Origin: Psychroflexus maritimus
Lineage (GTDB): Bacteria > Bacteroidota > Bacteroidia > Flavobacteriales > Flavobacteriaceae
Reading direction: 5' to 3'
Assembly (NCBI RefSeq): GCF_011089875.1
Contig: NZ_JAANAS010000083.1
Location: 1 to 64,000, forward strand
Length of the DNA stretch: 64,000 nucleotides
Part shown: in pieces, positions 7,726 to 22,709 of the stretch
Numbering within the stretch: position 1 is the first letter of the stretch
Layout of the letters: each line of letters starts with the position of its first letter
Program-made: the position numbers and the translations under genes
Notes under the pieces: model-generated
What the model was told of the DNA's origin: nothing
Seen by the model: only the letters and a program-made list of their open reading frames with translations
Databases searched by the model: none

Positions 7726-8101
7726 GTTGGTTTTTAGCTTCAATACTTAGTGTTGCATGAGGAACTAGTTTTAATCGTTCTTTATTGATTAATTTTCCTG
7801 TAACTCTGCACACCCCGTAAGTTTTATTCTCTATTCTAATCAAGGCGTTTTTTAAGTCTCTAATAAACTTTCCTTGACGTATAGCTAAAGCAGAATTAGC
7901 TTCTTTACTTAAAGTGTTGCTGCCATCGTCAAAAGACTTAAACGTAGGTGCTGTGTCTTCTGTATCATTAGCACTCCCGTTTTTAAAAGCTTCTTGATAA
8001 AGGTTTAATTGCTTTTCAGCTTTTACAATTTTATCTTCGATGAGCGCTTTAAATTCAGCTAATTCTTCATCGCTATACCTAACTTTTGTAGTGGTGTTCA
8101 T
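7718..8101 (-). CDS. TraR/DksA-family protein
   Basis: The 127-residue protein has a helical N-terminal half (about 5-90) and the family C-terminal block YGVCRVTGKLINKERLKLVP (95-114). DksA-type proteins enter the RNA polymerase secondary channel and tune transcription, often with ppGpp. Classical DksA binds zinc through four cysteines, but here only C98 remains, so the zinc finger is absent; this is common in the flavobacterial branch of the family. The start codon overlaps the ileS stop by one nt (TAATG), so it is translated with the upstream synthetase gene. Confidence 0.85.
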   Translation of the reverse strand: MNTTTKVRYSDEELAEFKALIEDKIVKAEKQLNLYQEAFKNGSANDTEDTAPTFKSFDDGSNTLSKEANSALAIRQGKFIRDLKNALIRIENKTYGVCRVTGKLINKERLKLVPHATLSIEAKNQQG

Positions 8102-11100
8102 TATTCAGTTTTTTTAATTTTGAGAACTGTTTTTAAATTGTCAAATTCAATTTCAACTCCCTGATTAATATCGGTTTCAAATGTAAGGCTTGAAGTTAAA
8201 GTTTCTTGTCTTATGTAGGTTAAATTTTTGTTTACTGCAGCCTCAATTTTTGGATTAGACTGCATGGTAATTTCAACTTGATCGGTAACTTCAAATCCGC
8301 TATCTTTTCTCAAGTTTTGTATTCTATTTACTAGTTCTCTTGCTATTCCTTCATGAATTAACTCATCGTTTAAGCTCACATCTAAAGCAACGGTTAATCC
8401 ATTTCCGCTAGCTACCAGCCAACCTTCAATATCTTGAGAAGTAATTTCTACATCCGATTTGGAAATATACTGCTTTTCGTCTAGTAAATCAATTTCTAAG
8501 CCACCATTTTTTTCAATCTGAGCTATTTCGTTCTCACCAAATTGTTGAATGGCTTGTACGGCTTGTTTCATGTTTTTTCCAAACCTTGGCCCTAAGGTTT
8601 TAAAATTAGGCTTAATATCTTTCACTAGAATTCCTGAAGTATCATCTAAAAATTCGATTTCTTTTACATTCACTTCAGATTTAATCAAGTTAGCCACAGC
8701 CGCAATTTCTTCTCTAATGCTTTCGTCTAACACAGGAATCATAATTCGTTGAAGCGGTTGTCTTACTTTGATTTTTTCTTTTTTCCTTAGCGAAAGAGTT
8801 AAGGAAGAAATTTGTTGAGCTTTTTGCATCTTACGCTCTAAAACTTCATCAATTAATTCTTTATTTACTGTTGGGAAGTAACTTAAATGAACGCTTTCAT
8901 GCTCTTCATGAGCAGTAGCATTTGTTAAATCTTTATATAATTTTTCTGCAAAAAATGGAGCTACTGGTGCTATTAATTGAGCTACGGTTTTTAAACAAGT
9001 AAATAATGTTTGATAGGCCGAAATTTTATCCTGCTTATAGTCACCTTTCCAGAATCTTCTTCTGCTTAAGCGCACATACCAGTTGCTTAAGTTTTCTTGA
9101 ACAAAATCTGAAATTGCTCTTGTCGCTCGGGTGGGTTCATATTCGCTGTAAAAATGATCTACATTACCCACTAAAGTATTTAATTCAGAAAGAATCCAAC
9201 GATCTATTTCTGGACGTTCTTTGTTGGCTATTTCAGCTTCAGCGTAGGAAAATTCATCAATATTAGCGTAAAGACTAAAAAAGGAATAAGTATTGTATAA
9301 AGTTCCGAAGAATTTTCTTTGTACTTCGGCAATTCCTTCTAAATCAAATTTTAAATTATCCCATGGATTGGCATTGCTAATCATGTACCAGCGCGTGGCA
9401 TCTGGACCATAATCGTTTAAGGTTTTGAATGGATCTACTGCATTGCCCAAGCGTTTGGACATTTTTTGTCCGTTTTTATCTAGGACAAGTCCGTTGGATA
9501 CCACATTTTTGTAAGCAACATCATCAAAAATCAACGTAGCAATGGCGTGGAGCGTGTAAAACCAACCTCTTGTTTGATCAACACCTTCGGCAATGAAGTC
9601 GGCGGAGAGGCCCCCTAACCCCCCAAGGGGGAATTTTCTCAACGCTTCCTCAATTTTTTGTAGAACTTTGTCAATATCACCAATAATTTCATCATTGGTA
9701 AACCTAATCACACTGAAGCCAAATTTTTCTTTCAGAAATTGAGTTCTAAACTCATCACTCTCCTTCACTTCTGGATTCTTATGGTAGCCACCATCCACTT
9801 CAACAACGAGTTTTTGACCTAAACAAACAAAATCTACTATATATTCATCAATGATATGTTGTCTCCTGAATTTAAAACCTCCTAATTGCTTTCCTCGTAA
9901 TTGTTCCCAAAGAATACTTTCAGCTTCGGTAGGCTTTTTTTTGTGCTTTTCAGCGTTTTCTTTTAATCTATTGTAAGAAGATTTTCTTGCTGTTTGGTAG
10001 CCGAGAGTGTCGACTCCCCCTCCTTTGGAGGGGGCTGGGGGGAGGCTGAACGGATAATGCCATTGTGCGTAGGGCATACTTCCTGAATCAAACCAAACAT
10101 CGATCAAATCGGCTTCACGATACATGGGTTGCCCACTTTCACTCACTAAAATAATTTGATCAACTACATTTTTATGTAAATCAATTCGGTCATAATTTTC
10201 ATCGCTTAAATTACCTACCTCAAAAGTTTCATAAGGGTCTTTCTCCATTAGTCCAGCTTCTATGGAACGAGAAATTTCGTATTTTAATTCTTCTACGGAA
10301 CCAATGATCATTTCTTCTTTTCCATTTTCTGTTCGCCAGATTGGCAAAGGTATTCCCCAGTATCTTGAGCGGGATAAATTCCAATCATTGGCATTGGCTA
10401 ACCAGTTGCCAAACCTACCTTCGCCAGTAGATTTAGGTTTCCAGTTGATGGTTTTATTAAGCTCATGCATACGCTCTTTCACCTCGGTTACTTTAATGAA
10501 CCAAGAATCTAGCGGGTAATACAGAATAGGCTTGTCCGTACGCCAACAGTTAGGATAGGAGTGAACGTATTTTTCGACTTTAAAAGCACGATTTTCTTCT
10601 TTTAATTGGATGGCGATTTCTACATCCACCGATTTTTCTGGAGCTTCGCCTTCTGGATAATATTCATTTTTTACAAATTTACCTCCATGTTTACCTACTT
10701 CAGGTCTAAATTTACCTTGCAAGTCAACCAACGGAACTAAATTTCCATTTTCATCTTTGACTAACATTCCAGGAACTTCGGGAGTAGCTTGTTTAGCTAC
10801 AAGCGCATCATCCGCACCAAAAGTTGGCGCTGTGTGTACAATTCCTGTACCATCTTCGGTAGTTACAAAATCACCTGCAATAACGCGGAAAGCATTTTCA
10901 GGATGATGATAAGGTTGAGCGTATGGAAGTAGTTGTTCGTATTTTATTCCGACTAAATCTTTACCGATAGTTTCATGAACAATTCGGTAAGGAATTTTTT
11001 TATCTTCTTTTTGATAAGCTTCTATTTCTTCCTTAGTTTCAACCGCTTTAAATTTCTTACTGAACTGCTTTTTTACTAGGGCTTCAGCAAGCATTACATG

Positions 11101-11913
11101 GATAGGTTTATACGTATATTGGTTGTAGGTTTCTACCACTACATACTTGATTTTTGAGCCTACAGTAAGCGCTGTGTTACTTGGAAGCGTCCAGGGAGTT
11201 GTAGTCCACGCCAATAAAAATAAGTTTTCAAAAGCTTGTAAACCTGATGGCAGACTTTCTTTAACTGTTTTAAATTGCGCAGTGACTGTAGTATCGGTAA
11301 CGTCTTGGTAAGTTCCAGGTTGGTTTAACTCATGCGAACTCAAACCTGTACCTGCTTTTGGTGAATAAGGCTGAATGGTATATCCTTTGTAAATGAGGCC
11401 CTTTTTGTAAATTTGGGACAACAACCACCAAACGCTTTCCATGTATTTGGATTTGTAGGTGATGTAGGGATTTTCCATATCTACCCAATACCCCATTTTT
11501 CCGGTGAGGTTATTCCATACATCGGTATATTTCATCACCGCTTTTTTACAAGCTTGGTTGTATGCTTCAATAGAAATTTTCGTACCAATATCCTCTTTGG
11601 TAATCCCCAGTTCTTTTTCAACGCCTAATTCAACCGGCAAGCCGTGGGTGTCCCAACCTGCTTTACGATTAACTTTGTAGCCTTTTTGGGTTTTGTATCT
11701 GCAAAAAATATCTTTAATACTTCTTGCCATTACGTGGTGAATACCAGGCATTCCGTTAGCCGATGGTGGGCCTTCAAAAAACACAAAATCTTCTGCATCA
11801 TTCCGGGTAGTAATACTTTTTTGGAAGATTTGTTCTTCTTTCCAAAAAGCTAATACTTCATCTGCTATTTGGGGTAGGTTTAAACCTTTATGTTCTGGAA
11901 ATTTCTTTGCCAT
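8101..11913 (-). CDS. ileS: isoleucine-tRNA ligase with in-frame DUF559 domain insertion
   Basis: This class I synthetase joins isoleucine to tRNA-Ile. It shows the HIGH-type motif in PSANGMPGIHH (50-60), the editing domain, the motif KMSKR (about 816-820) and a C-terminal tRNA-binding region. At 1270 residues it is about 140 longer than the usual Bacteroidota enzyme. The excess lies at about residues 623-769, between WFDSGSMPYAQWHYPF and ADFIAEGVDQTRGW, and is a complete DUF559 (Vsr/PD-(D/E)XK-like) domain. As the only ileS seen here it is presumably active, so the insert must be tolerated. No intein splice junctions (Cys/Ser at the start, His-Asn at the end) are visible. Confidence 0.95.
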   Translation of the reverse strand: MAKKFPEHKGLNLPQIADEVLAFWKEEQIFQKSITTRNDAEDFVFFEGPPSANGMPGIHHVMARSIKDIFCRYKTQKGYKVNRKAGWDTHGLPVELGVEKELGITKEDIGTKISIEAYNQACKKAVMKYTDVWNNLTGKMGYWVDMENPYITYKSKYMESVWWLLSQIYKKGLIYKGYTIQPYSPKAGTGLSSHELNQPGTYQDVTDTTVTAQFKTVKESLPSGLQAFENLFLLAWTTTPWTLPSNTALTVGSKIKYVVVETYNQYTYKPIHVMLAEALVKKQFSKKFKAVETKEEIEAYQKEDKKIPYRIVHETIGKDLVGIKYEQLLPYAQPYHHPENAFRVIAGDFVTTEDGTGIVHTAPTFGADDALVAKQATPEVPGMLVKDENGNLVPLVDLQGKFRPEVGKHGGKFVKNEYYPEGEAPEKSVDVEIAIQLKEENRAFKVEKYVHSYPNCWRTDKPILYYPLDSWFIKVTEVKERMHELNKTINWKPKSTGEGRFGNWLANANDWNLSRSRYWGIPLPIWRTENGKEEMIIGSVEELKYEISRSIEAGLMEKDPYETFEVGNLSDENYDRIDLHKNVVDQIILVSESGQPMYREADLIDVWFDSGSMPYAQWHYPFSLPPAPSKGGGVDTLGYQTARKSSYNRLKENAEKHKKKPTEAESILWEQLRGKQLGGFKFRRQHIIDEYIVDFVCLGQKLVVEVDGGYHKNPEVKESDEFRTQFLKEKFGFSVIRFTNDEIIGDIDKVLQKIEEALRKFPLGGLGGLSADFIAEGVDQTRGWFYTLHAIATLIFDDVAYKNVVSNGLVLDKNGQKMSKRLGNAVDPFKTLNDYGPDATRWYMISNANPWDNLKFDLEGIAEVQRKFFGTLYNTYSFFSLYANIDEFSYAEAEIANKERPEIDRWILSELNTLVGNVDHFYSEYEPTRATRAISDFVQENLSNWYVRLSRRRFWKGDYKQDKISAYQTLFTCLKTVAQLIAPVAPFFAEKLYKDLTNATAHEEHESVHLSYFPTVNKELIDEVLERKMQKAQQISSLTLSLRKKEKIKVRQPLQRIMIPVLDESIREEIAAVANLIKSEVNVKEIEFLDDTSGILVKDIKPNFKTLGPRFGKNMKQAVQAIQQFGENEIAQIEKNGGLEIDLLDEKQYISKSDVEITSQDIEGWLVASGNGLTVALDVSLNDELIHEGIARELVNRIQNLRKDSGFEVTDQVEITMQSNPKIEAAVNKNLTYIRQETLTSSLTFETDINQGVEIEFDNLKTVLKIKKTE
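9605..10047 (-). mobile_element. DUF559 endonuclease-like insert within ileS, with G/C-rich hairpin ends
   Basis: The insert encodes about 147 residues. Its core contains ENAEKHKKKPTEAESILWEQ, LRGKQLGGFKFRRQHIIDEY, IVDFVCLGQKLVVEVDGGYH and FGFSVIRFTNDEI, the pattern of stand-alone DUF559 proteins with the D...ExD acids of the PD-(D/E)XK fold. Its two ends are repeats: CCCCCTCC-TTT-GGAGGGGG at 10016-10034 and CCCCC-AA-GGGGG at 9620-9631. They are translated as LPPAPSKGGG and PLGGLGGL. The ends resemble the REP-like sequence at 22607-22682. The insert keeps frame with ileS on both sides. Confidence 0.8.
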
Positions 11914-22606: not shown

Positions 22607-22682
22607 TAAAAGCCTCCCCATCGGGGAGATTTAGAGGGACTCTTCCCCTCCCCTTTGGGGAGGGTTAAGGTGGGGCTTTTAG
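22607..22682. repeat. REP-like element with CCCTCCCC-TTT-GGGGAGGG hairpin
   Basis: Outer arms TAAAAGCCTCCCCA and TGGGGCTTTTAG enclose two hairpins: CTCCCC-ATC-GGGGAG and CCCTCCCC-TTT-GGGGAGGG (22644-22662). The second has the same head design as the ends of the DUF559 insert in ileS. It lies about 30 bp beyond the 3' end of rfbB and may act in both directions as a transcript end. Confidence 0.75.
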
Positions 22683-22709
22683 GGGATGGGCTTTTAGGAA
22701 TGGGTTTTT

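Follow-up and report, generated by a model that had tools for sequence, protein, structure and literature searches.

Introduction

Homing endonucleases are known inside inteins and introns, and mobile elements in essential genes are thought to need splicing in order to be tolerated. The terminal splice residues of inteins include His-Asn. When homing proceeds by break repair, flanking DNA is often dragged along. The Rickettsia palindromic elements (RPE) and the intragenic REPs are short units that lack an enzyme of their own. Excerpts of two reports describe in-frame palindromes in Rickettsia and other bacteria, and intragenic REPs in the uvrA, UvrD-like and recBCD genes (PMC10969869, PMC3733652). 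The EDxHD enzymes are presented in a review as a family of homing endonucleases (PMC3943268), and a DUF559 gene was already assigned to this family in the section on inteins of a report on a cyanobacterial genome (PMC9403480). The Caulobacter DUF559 protein VsrA is, according to part of its description, free-standing and Vsr-like with a predicted role in mismatch repair (PMC12907096).

The stretch of DNA analysed here (the window) comprises 64,000 nucleotides from Psychroflexus maritimus and contains an isoleucyl-tRNA synthetase (IleRS) gene with a DUF559 domain read in frame. The additional block is probably a homing-like nuclease element that does without splicing, has REP-like ends and is carried as an extra domain inside host proteins.

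Results

The in-frame element in IleRS

The Pfam matches of the window IleRS are tRNA-synt_1 in two stretches, Anticodon_1, DUF5915 and DUF559. The last covers residues 649–758 (profile 2–108 of 109, E = 2.2e-34); it is nearly complete and statistically beyond chance, in agreement with the full DUF559 domain proposed in a preliminary description of this DNA. It is the only DUF559 match in the window genome. The block is real and in frame; its first codon follows WFDSGSMPYAQWHYPF and its last precedes DFIAEGVDQTRGW (447 nt). The earlier bounds were 9605–10047 and about 147 residues; those found here are given in Table 1. The first in-frame ATG, GTG or TTG of the insert does not occur before codon 84 of 149, so the nuclease would, barring rarer start codons, be made only as a part of IleRS. 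An own start codon was considered as a marker of the element and rejected as weak, since 43 of 61 in-gene copies have an in-frame ATG near the start.

Table 1. Features of the ileS gene and of its in-frame element in the window
Feature	Position	Strand	Remarks
ileS, isoleucyl-tRNA synthetase, in-frame element read through	8101..11913	-	1270 aa ORF
In-frame element, 149 codons	9601..10047	-	Replaces short ENKEKVENTWRS-like loop of empty-site relatives; exact ends +/- few codons
DUF559 (PF04480) nuclease domain, seven invariant residues included	9640..9969	-	Pfam profile, structure model
5' REP-like palindrome of the element, translation SLPPAPSKGGG	10014..10047	-	Hairpin and sequence
3' REP-like palindrome of the element, translation FPLGGLGG	9607..9633	-	Hairpin no better than shuffles

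The G/C hairpins that had been proposed to flank the domain are both translated, and one of them stands out from shuffled sequence. The left palindrome (AGCCTCCCCCCAGCCCCCTCCAAAGGAGGGGGAG on the host strand) has a z-score of -2.0, with 4 of 200 shuffles equally good. The right palindrome (TTCCCCCTTGGGGGGTTAGGGGGCCTC, same strand) is unremarkable as a hairpin (z -0.33, 70 of 200 shuffles equally good). As inverted repeats of each other the two ends are not significant in this copy (44 of 100 shuffles equally good), and its palindromes are weaker than those of many relatives.

The nuclease domain

The AlphaFold2 model of the insert has a mean pLDDT of 81.4; a model of the insert in the IleRS context was set aside (mean pLDDT 52.7). 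The best solved match is the putative endonuclease 3hrl (TM 0.91 by target length in Foldseek; profile E = 4.8e-32). The nearest characterised solved relative is the homing endonuclease I-Bth0305I, whose catalytic domain (3r3p) matches with TM 0.77 (Foldseek E = 1.4e-5; profile E = 5.1e-7); Vsr ranks lower by structure. E43, W47, D72, F73, E83, D85 and D98 (insert numbering) are invariant and H89 is nearly invariant in 84 aligned domains, an invariance that holds for a chosen set because the alignment consists of the window insert and 83 of 110 domains, with 27 others (free-standing and in-gene) left out. The 3r3p chain has an alanine opposite D72 in the profile alignment.

The dN/dS of the domain is 0–0.30 over 12 pairs, which were picked as close or telling and several of which have dS near saturation. 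Between genomes G307 and G309 it is 0.18, compared with 0.04 and 0.07 for the host flanks. These ratios indicate that purifying selection on the DUF559 domain is real and, in the pairs with host flanks measured, mostly weaker than on the host gene.

Filled and empty sites

The IleRS site was compared across the 27 genomes of the genus of the window genome. Four are filled, 20 have a short loop and three have no readable site; at 20 of the 24 readable sites a stretch of 10–14 residues takes the place of the block, the pattern that the preliminary description had expected from an alignment of relatives. The other three filled proteins are 70–72% identical to the window copy over 190 residues, flanks included. 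Thirteen of the 20 empty sites were read in detail, and 11 of these have a 14-residue native-type stretch, e.g. ENKEKVENTWRSAD. G317 reads EEPQGGLSAN and G320 reads EKPESRMQAD. On a tree of 18 IleRS rows calculated without the insert, a fully supported branch unites G317 and the window genome as sisters, and the GGL-type stretch of G317 is therefore best read as the likely remnant of a lost element. On the same tree G316 (filled) is sister to G303 (native-type loop), and the presence of the element forces at least three changes. Outside the genus, G248 (another genus) is the only one of the 299 genomes of the family with this site filled. Among named loci (best 80 of 574) the same site is filled in 13, P. 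salis among them; these belong to Prolixibacteraceae, Marinilabiliaceae, Winogradskyella, Galbibacter, Flammeovirgaceae and others.

The LeuRS site in the same genus is filled in five genomes, empty in 19 (one of them unreadable) and undetermined in three. G307 has kept a lone palindrome at this site, likely a remnant of the element. The housekeeping genes that host DUF559 are generally regarded as essential. Such a gene had been thought to shelter the element from deletion; the shelter is incomplete, since the likely remnants point to losses. Comparison by eye of filled and empty IleRS, LeuRS and MetH sites shows that the element replaces a short native loop, and no target-site duplication was seen at these sites.

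Two further observations concern empty sites. In LeuRS, several members of the genus (loci L192, L193, L195, L197 and L199) have tandem repeats of AATTCAAAATTC, read KIQNSKF or similar, which are perhaps another small repeat landing in the same loop. At MetH site B, G176 (locus L085) has a palindrome-like SPLGGDLEA where G215 has the full element; this is a possible remnant.

Transfer between alleles of the same site

The IleRS inserts of G307 and G309 are 97.3% identical in DNA, with flanks at 84% (left) and 80% (right). The dS of the domain is 0.084, and that of the IleRS flanks a few hundred bases away is 0.97 and 1.32. In bins of 40 nt, few differences fall between about -80 and +400 relative to the start of the domain and many lie beyond, so the tract of low divergence approximates the element's own extent, with a slight effect only in the nearest flank. 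The 12 differences in 447 nt have a binomial chance of 4e-20 at an assumed background of 16%. The LeuRS copies of G174 and G300 (domain dS 0.126, flanks 0.82 and 0.77) and the RecG copies of G404 and G601 (0.032, flanks 0.30 and 0.36) behave alike. Over the three cases domain dS is 6–16 times below flank dS, and each of these recent transfers lies within one genus. No recent donor was found for the window copy.

By these comparisons the DUF559 element is mobile and moves horizontally into element-free alleles of the same site. A mobile, homing-like element had been proposed at the outset, and both the patchy presence on the IleRS tree and the recent movement of some inserts support this; related genera do not uniformly carry the domain with the normal decay of an old fixed insertion. 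Of 356 same-site pairs (one MetH row, one of the two G215 copies, was skipped), 8 lie above a 5-point excess similarity of the insert and 348 are without such excess; by the medians, the domain changes slightly faster than the flanks. The 348 pairs fit long vertical inheritance with faster change, and long residence with occasional transfer therefore fits better than constant movement. Because the G307/G309 tract stops near the element ends, while homing by break repair often takes flanks along, direct insertion may also have occurred.

Copies at new sites and palindromic ends

MetH of G215 contains two copies in different loops. In local alignment they are 82.5% identical over 418 nt; AGCCCCCC..CCCCCAAAGGGGGAGC stands at the start and its inverted counterpart at the end, so that the alignment runs from palindrome to palindrome. 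The differences are mostly synonymous (dN/dS 0.033, with dS near saturation). In L312, a Flavobacterium MAG, the same two MetH sites are filled, and the alignment of the copies (83.9% over 459 columns) ends at palindromes. Both alignments point clearly to copying between sites with the palindromes as ends, which suggests a second and less frequent route to which the hairpin ends contribute.

Inverted repeats flanking the domain were scored against 100 dinucleotide shuffles. In the 122-domain set no shuffle was as good for 38 of the 94 in-gene domains and for 7 of the 28 free-standing ones. Among the named loci tested this applies to 41 of the 72 in-gene domains and to 7 of the 8 short ones, whereas control stretches taken at random from these loci reach it in 2 of 81 cases. 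G/C-rich hairpins are found on the left in 52 and on the right in 57 of the 72 in-gene loci (controls, 11 and 8 of 81). The search suggested earlier for the same domain elsewhere was productive: DUF559 with translated, G/C-rich palindromic ends is located inside many other housekeeping genes.

The window genome also has such palindromes without DUF559, either singly or in a short inverted pair. A lone in-frame palindrome is located in a methylmalonyl-CoA mutase fusion, in the linker before the GTPase (L186, G000:C22), and another in an HsdS-like ORF (L070, G000:C104), both genes being recognised by eye. An intergenic G/C palindrome pair within the window (CTCCCCATCGGGGAG ... CCCTCCCCTTTGGGGAGGG, 22611–22690), beside a gene that by eye is dTDP-glucose dehydratase-like, looks like a short REP pair without nuclease.

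Hosts and distribution

DUF559 was found in 143 of 299 genomes of the family and, at E 1e-20, in 159 of 395 genomes of the phylum. The best 80 of 574 named matches are all from Bacteroidota. Stop-to-stop frames of 240 aa or more hold 72 of these, and the other eight are short. In 64 of the 80 the frame stays open for at least 100 residues on either side of the domain, and in eight of the 72 the domain is near an end of the frame or cut by the contig end. DUF559 had been described beforehand as usually free-standing, and this view has to be given up for the 80 best of the 574 named matches, where the in-gene state is the rule. The 122-domain set contains 94 in-gene domains (73 with at least 100 residues on both sides, 21 near one frame end), which is not a frequency because the set includes loci chosen for lying in long frames.

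Hosts were identified by Pfam or from flanks judged by eye. The aminoacyl-tRNA synthetases are IleRS (with a second site in L252), LeuRS (two sites), ValRS and MetRS. Other metabolic hosts are MetH (three sites), a methylmalonyl-CoA mutase fusion, chorismate synthase, aldehyde dehydrogenase and DegT aminotransferase; a GH31 glycosidase and an M23 peptidase were also found. The DNA-related hosts are RecG, UvrA, UvrD-like and Lhr-like helicases, HsdR, HsdM and other restriction-modification proteins. The domain lies near one end of the frame in HemD, HemF, HisD, HisF, a PurL-type amidotransferase, RNase H, guanylate kinase, aconitase and N-formylglutamate amidohydrolase. Because frames were taken from stop to stop, those cases in which the domain is near the N-terminal end (HemD, HemF, HisF, RNase H, guanylate kinase, aconitase) may instead represent a distinct gene that lies upstream in the same frame. 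In the HsdR of L151, a GIY-YIG and a DUF559 domain both lie between HSDR_N and the SWI2/SNF2 ATPase domain.

An explanation by a tendency common to small nuclease domains was considered and rejected: GIY-YIG (149 genomes) is found nearly always in short frames, with two of at least 240 aa among the best-scoring matches listed, compared with 45 of the 150 best-scoring matches listed for DUF559 (299 genomes), both counts being made by eye. Carriage by phages or plasmids was also rejected, DUF559 being present in only 2 of 50,697 phage and 38 of 72,556 plasmid records. There are no Bacteroidota among the organism names listed for these matches, 23 plasmid records and six names lying outside that list; the two phage records name no bacterial host.

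Trees of the domain

On a tree of 122 domains the host labels need 18 changes, compared with 74.2 in shuffles. IleRS, RecG, LeuRS, MetH and a few others form a clade of 61 rows (SH-aLRT 94) with no free-standing member. This purely in-gene clade was lost in a larger sample, where the smallest group with all IleRS copies has 85 rows, six of them free-standing. In the larger tree (200 domains) the labels need 30 changes (122.6 in shuffles), and RecG, HemD, HemF and MCM are each on one side of a branch. This tree is weakly resolved: IleRS requires 8 changes on it, LeuRS 7 and MetH 5, although the starred branches force one each. Given these changes, the element may have entered the sites repeatedly. 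The labels of both trees had assumed a third LeuRS site, which on checking proved to be the second.

Discussion

The element would measure about 420–460 nt and consist of two inverted, or nearly inverted, REP-like G/C palindromes around a DUF559 domain of Vsr/EDxHD type, free of stops throughout. It would remain in the host protein without being spliced out, forming an additional domain that usually occupies a variable loop; the long IleRS presumably works uncut. Many copies would represent lineages bound to one site of one conserved gene (RecG, MetH, LeuRS, IleRS and others). Like homing elements, they would spread into unoccupied alleles of that site in other species; jumps to new sites, in the same gene or in another, would be rare. 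The nuclease is predicted to break or nick the unoccupied allele close to the loop, and repair templated by the filled copy would then install the element. The site-bound lineages, the patchiness, the same-site transfer and the homing-type fold support this homing route. New sites would be reached by the second, rarer route, and the palindromes probably take part in moving the element.

The mobile unit could also be the palindromes themselves, REP/REPIN-like and served by a transposase in trans (e.g. RAYT), with DUF559 as a passenger between two of them. We regard this as unlikely. The lone palindromes and the short inverted pair without DUF559 in the same genome would be in keeping with it, as would the Y1 transposase matches in 24 of the 27 genus genomes and the paired MetH copies of G215 and L312, which start and end at palindromes. 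However, none of the 17 Y1 loci read has the C-rich palindrome pattern (20 were found, and three weak matches left out), and on this count a RAYT-driven repeat was set aside as the main reading and kept as a rival. The window genome has seven Y1 matches, the best with three stops and the rest weaker or partial. A passenger role is also unexpected because DUF559 groups by host and stays under purifying selection.

It is very unlikely that DUF559 is an accessory domain, kept for a benefit to the host in DNA repair, regulation or restriction and spread by ordinary recombination. The hosts are very different and unrelated, presence is patchy with likely remnants, two copies occur in one protein and the transfer tract ends near the element ends, all of which speak against this explanation, although the domain is under purifying selection, several hosts are DNA repair or restriction-modification proteins, and VsrA of Caulobacter is predicted, in the part of its description cited above, to act in mismatch repair (PMC12907096).

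An old insertion domain, inherited vertically and repeatedly lost with no real mobility, is extremely unlikely as a general explanation: the 348 same-site pairs without excess similarity and the presence of IleRS, MetH and LeuRS copies in many families would suit it, but the low domain dS in the three transfers and the second-site MetH copies of G215 and L312 ending at palindromes contradict it for the named pairs; it could hold for the window copy. An intein was rejected, as the absence of splicing claimed in the preliminary description would have it, since the block matches only DUF559 and the weaker nuclease model MTES_1575, starts with Ser, ends in ...GGLSA and has no terminal His-Asn; at the cut-offs used, no splicing domain was found in 47 other proteins scanned. 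A group I or group II intron was likewise rejected, with no Rfam match at gathering score over 9000–10700 and the reading frame open through the block.

A homing-like nuclease element without splicing is thus the reading that we prefer. Whether it also stands for a separate class of selfish element appears evenly balanced to us. Such a class would be a homing nuclease that has no intron or intein and lives as a tolerated extra domain, its palindromic ends supplying, in the required frame, a flexible Pro/Gly linker. It would parasitise housekeeping coding sequence across the phylum and shift from site to site, with translated palindromes as the traces left behind. In the open-licence literature, covered mostly at title level, we found no DUF559 inserted in frame in housekeeping genes, which is not proof of novelty. 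Within the same scope there was no nuclease-bearing, palindrome-ended element that stays in the protein and has lineages bound to sites in housekeeping genes.

The nuclease element appears to persist in many kinds of host, above all in aminoacyl-tRNA synthetases and MetH, with no splicing domain in the proteins scanned. It makes testable the survival of a homing endonuclease as a plain domain, the choice of tolerated loops and the selection of translated palindromes as linkers. It would explain odd insertions in annotated Bacteroidota proteins and could provide natural, pre-tested insertion points and linkers for protein engineering. If the separate class is correct, debris of the element could account for much of the Pro/Gly-rich loop variation that lacks an explanation in the housekeeping proteins of Bacteroidota.

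Among known systems, insertion sequences and MITEs differ in the target-site duplication, which was not seen by eye at the IleRS, LeuRS and MetH sites. REPIN/RAYT systems have two inverted REPs around a centre, an arrangement that is strong in many relatives (the 41 of 72 loci against 2 of 81 controls) and not significant in the window copy, and the window genome has a short inverted palindrome pair of this kind; they differ in that the element has DUF559 in place of a Y1 transposase, and the Y1 loci read lack these palindromes (0 of 17). RPE and intragenic REPs also place palindromes in frame, translated, in unrelated protein genes, a likeness that is weak at the right end of the window copy. 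The excerpts of the two reports cited describe no nuclease, site-bound lineage or same-site transfer for them (PMC10969869, PMC3733652), whereas the window block has a DUF559 domain. Free-standing DUF559/Vsr-like proteins have the same Pfam domain, and similar ends occur in 7 of 8 short named Bacteroidota loci; these proteins have their own gene and start codon, whereas here the domain lies inside another protein. Inteins with a homing endonuclease resemble the element as in-frame nucleases in conserved proteins with same-site spread. They differ in their splicing domain, for which no equivalent was seen here; the block stays as a loop and replaces native residues. The EDxHD homing endonucleases share the fixed sites in conserved genes and the patchy, horizontal distribution. 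Of these, I-Bth0305I (EDxHD/Vsr-like, PDB 3r3p) has a homologous catalytic domain by profile and fold. The PDB names it a mobile intron protein, whereas the nuclease described here is read through in the host protein and has palindromic ends.
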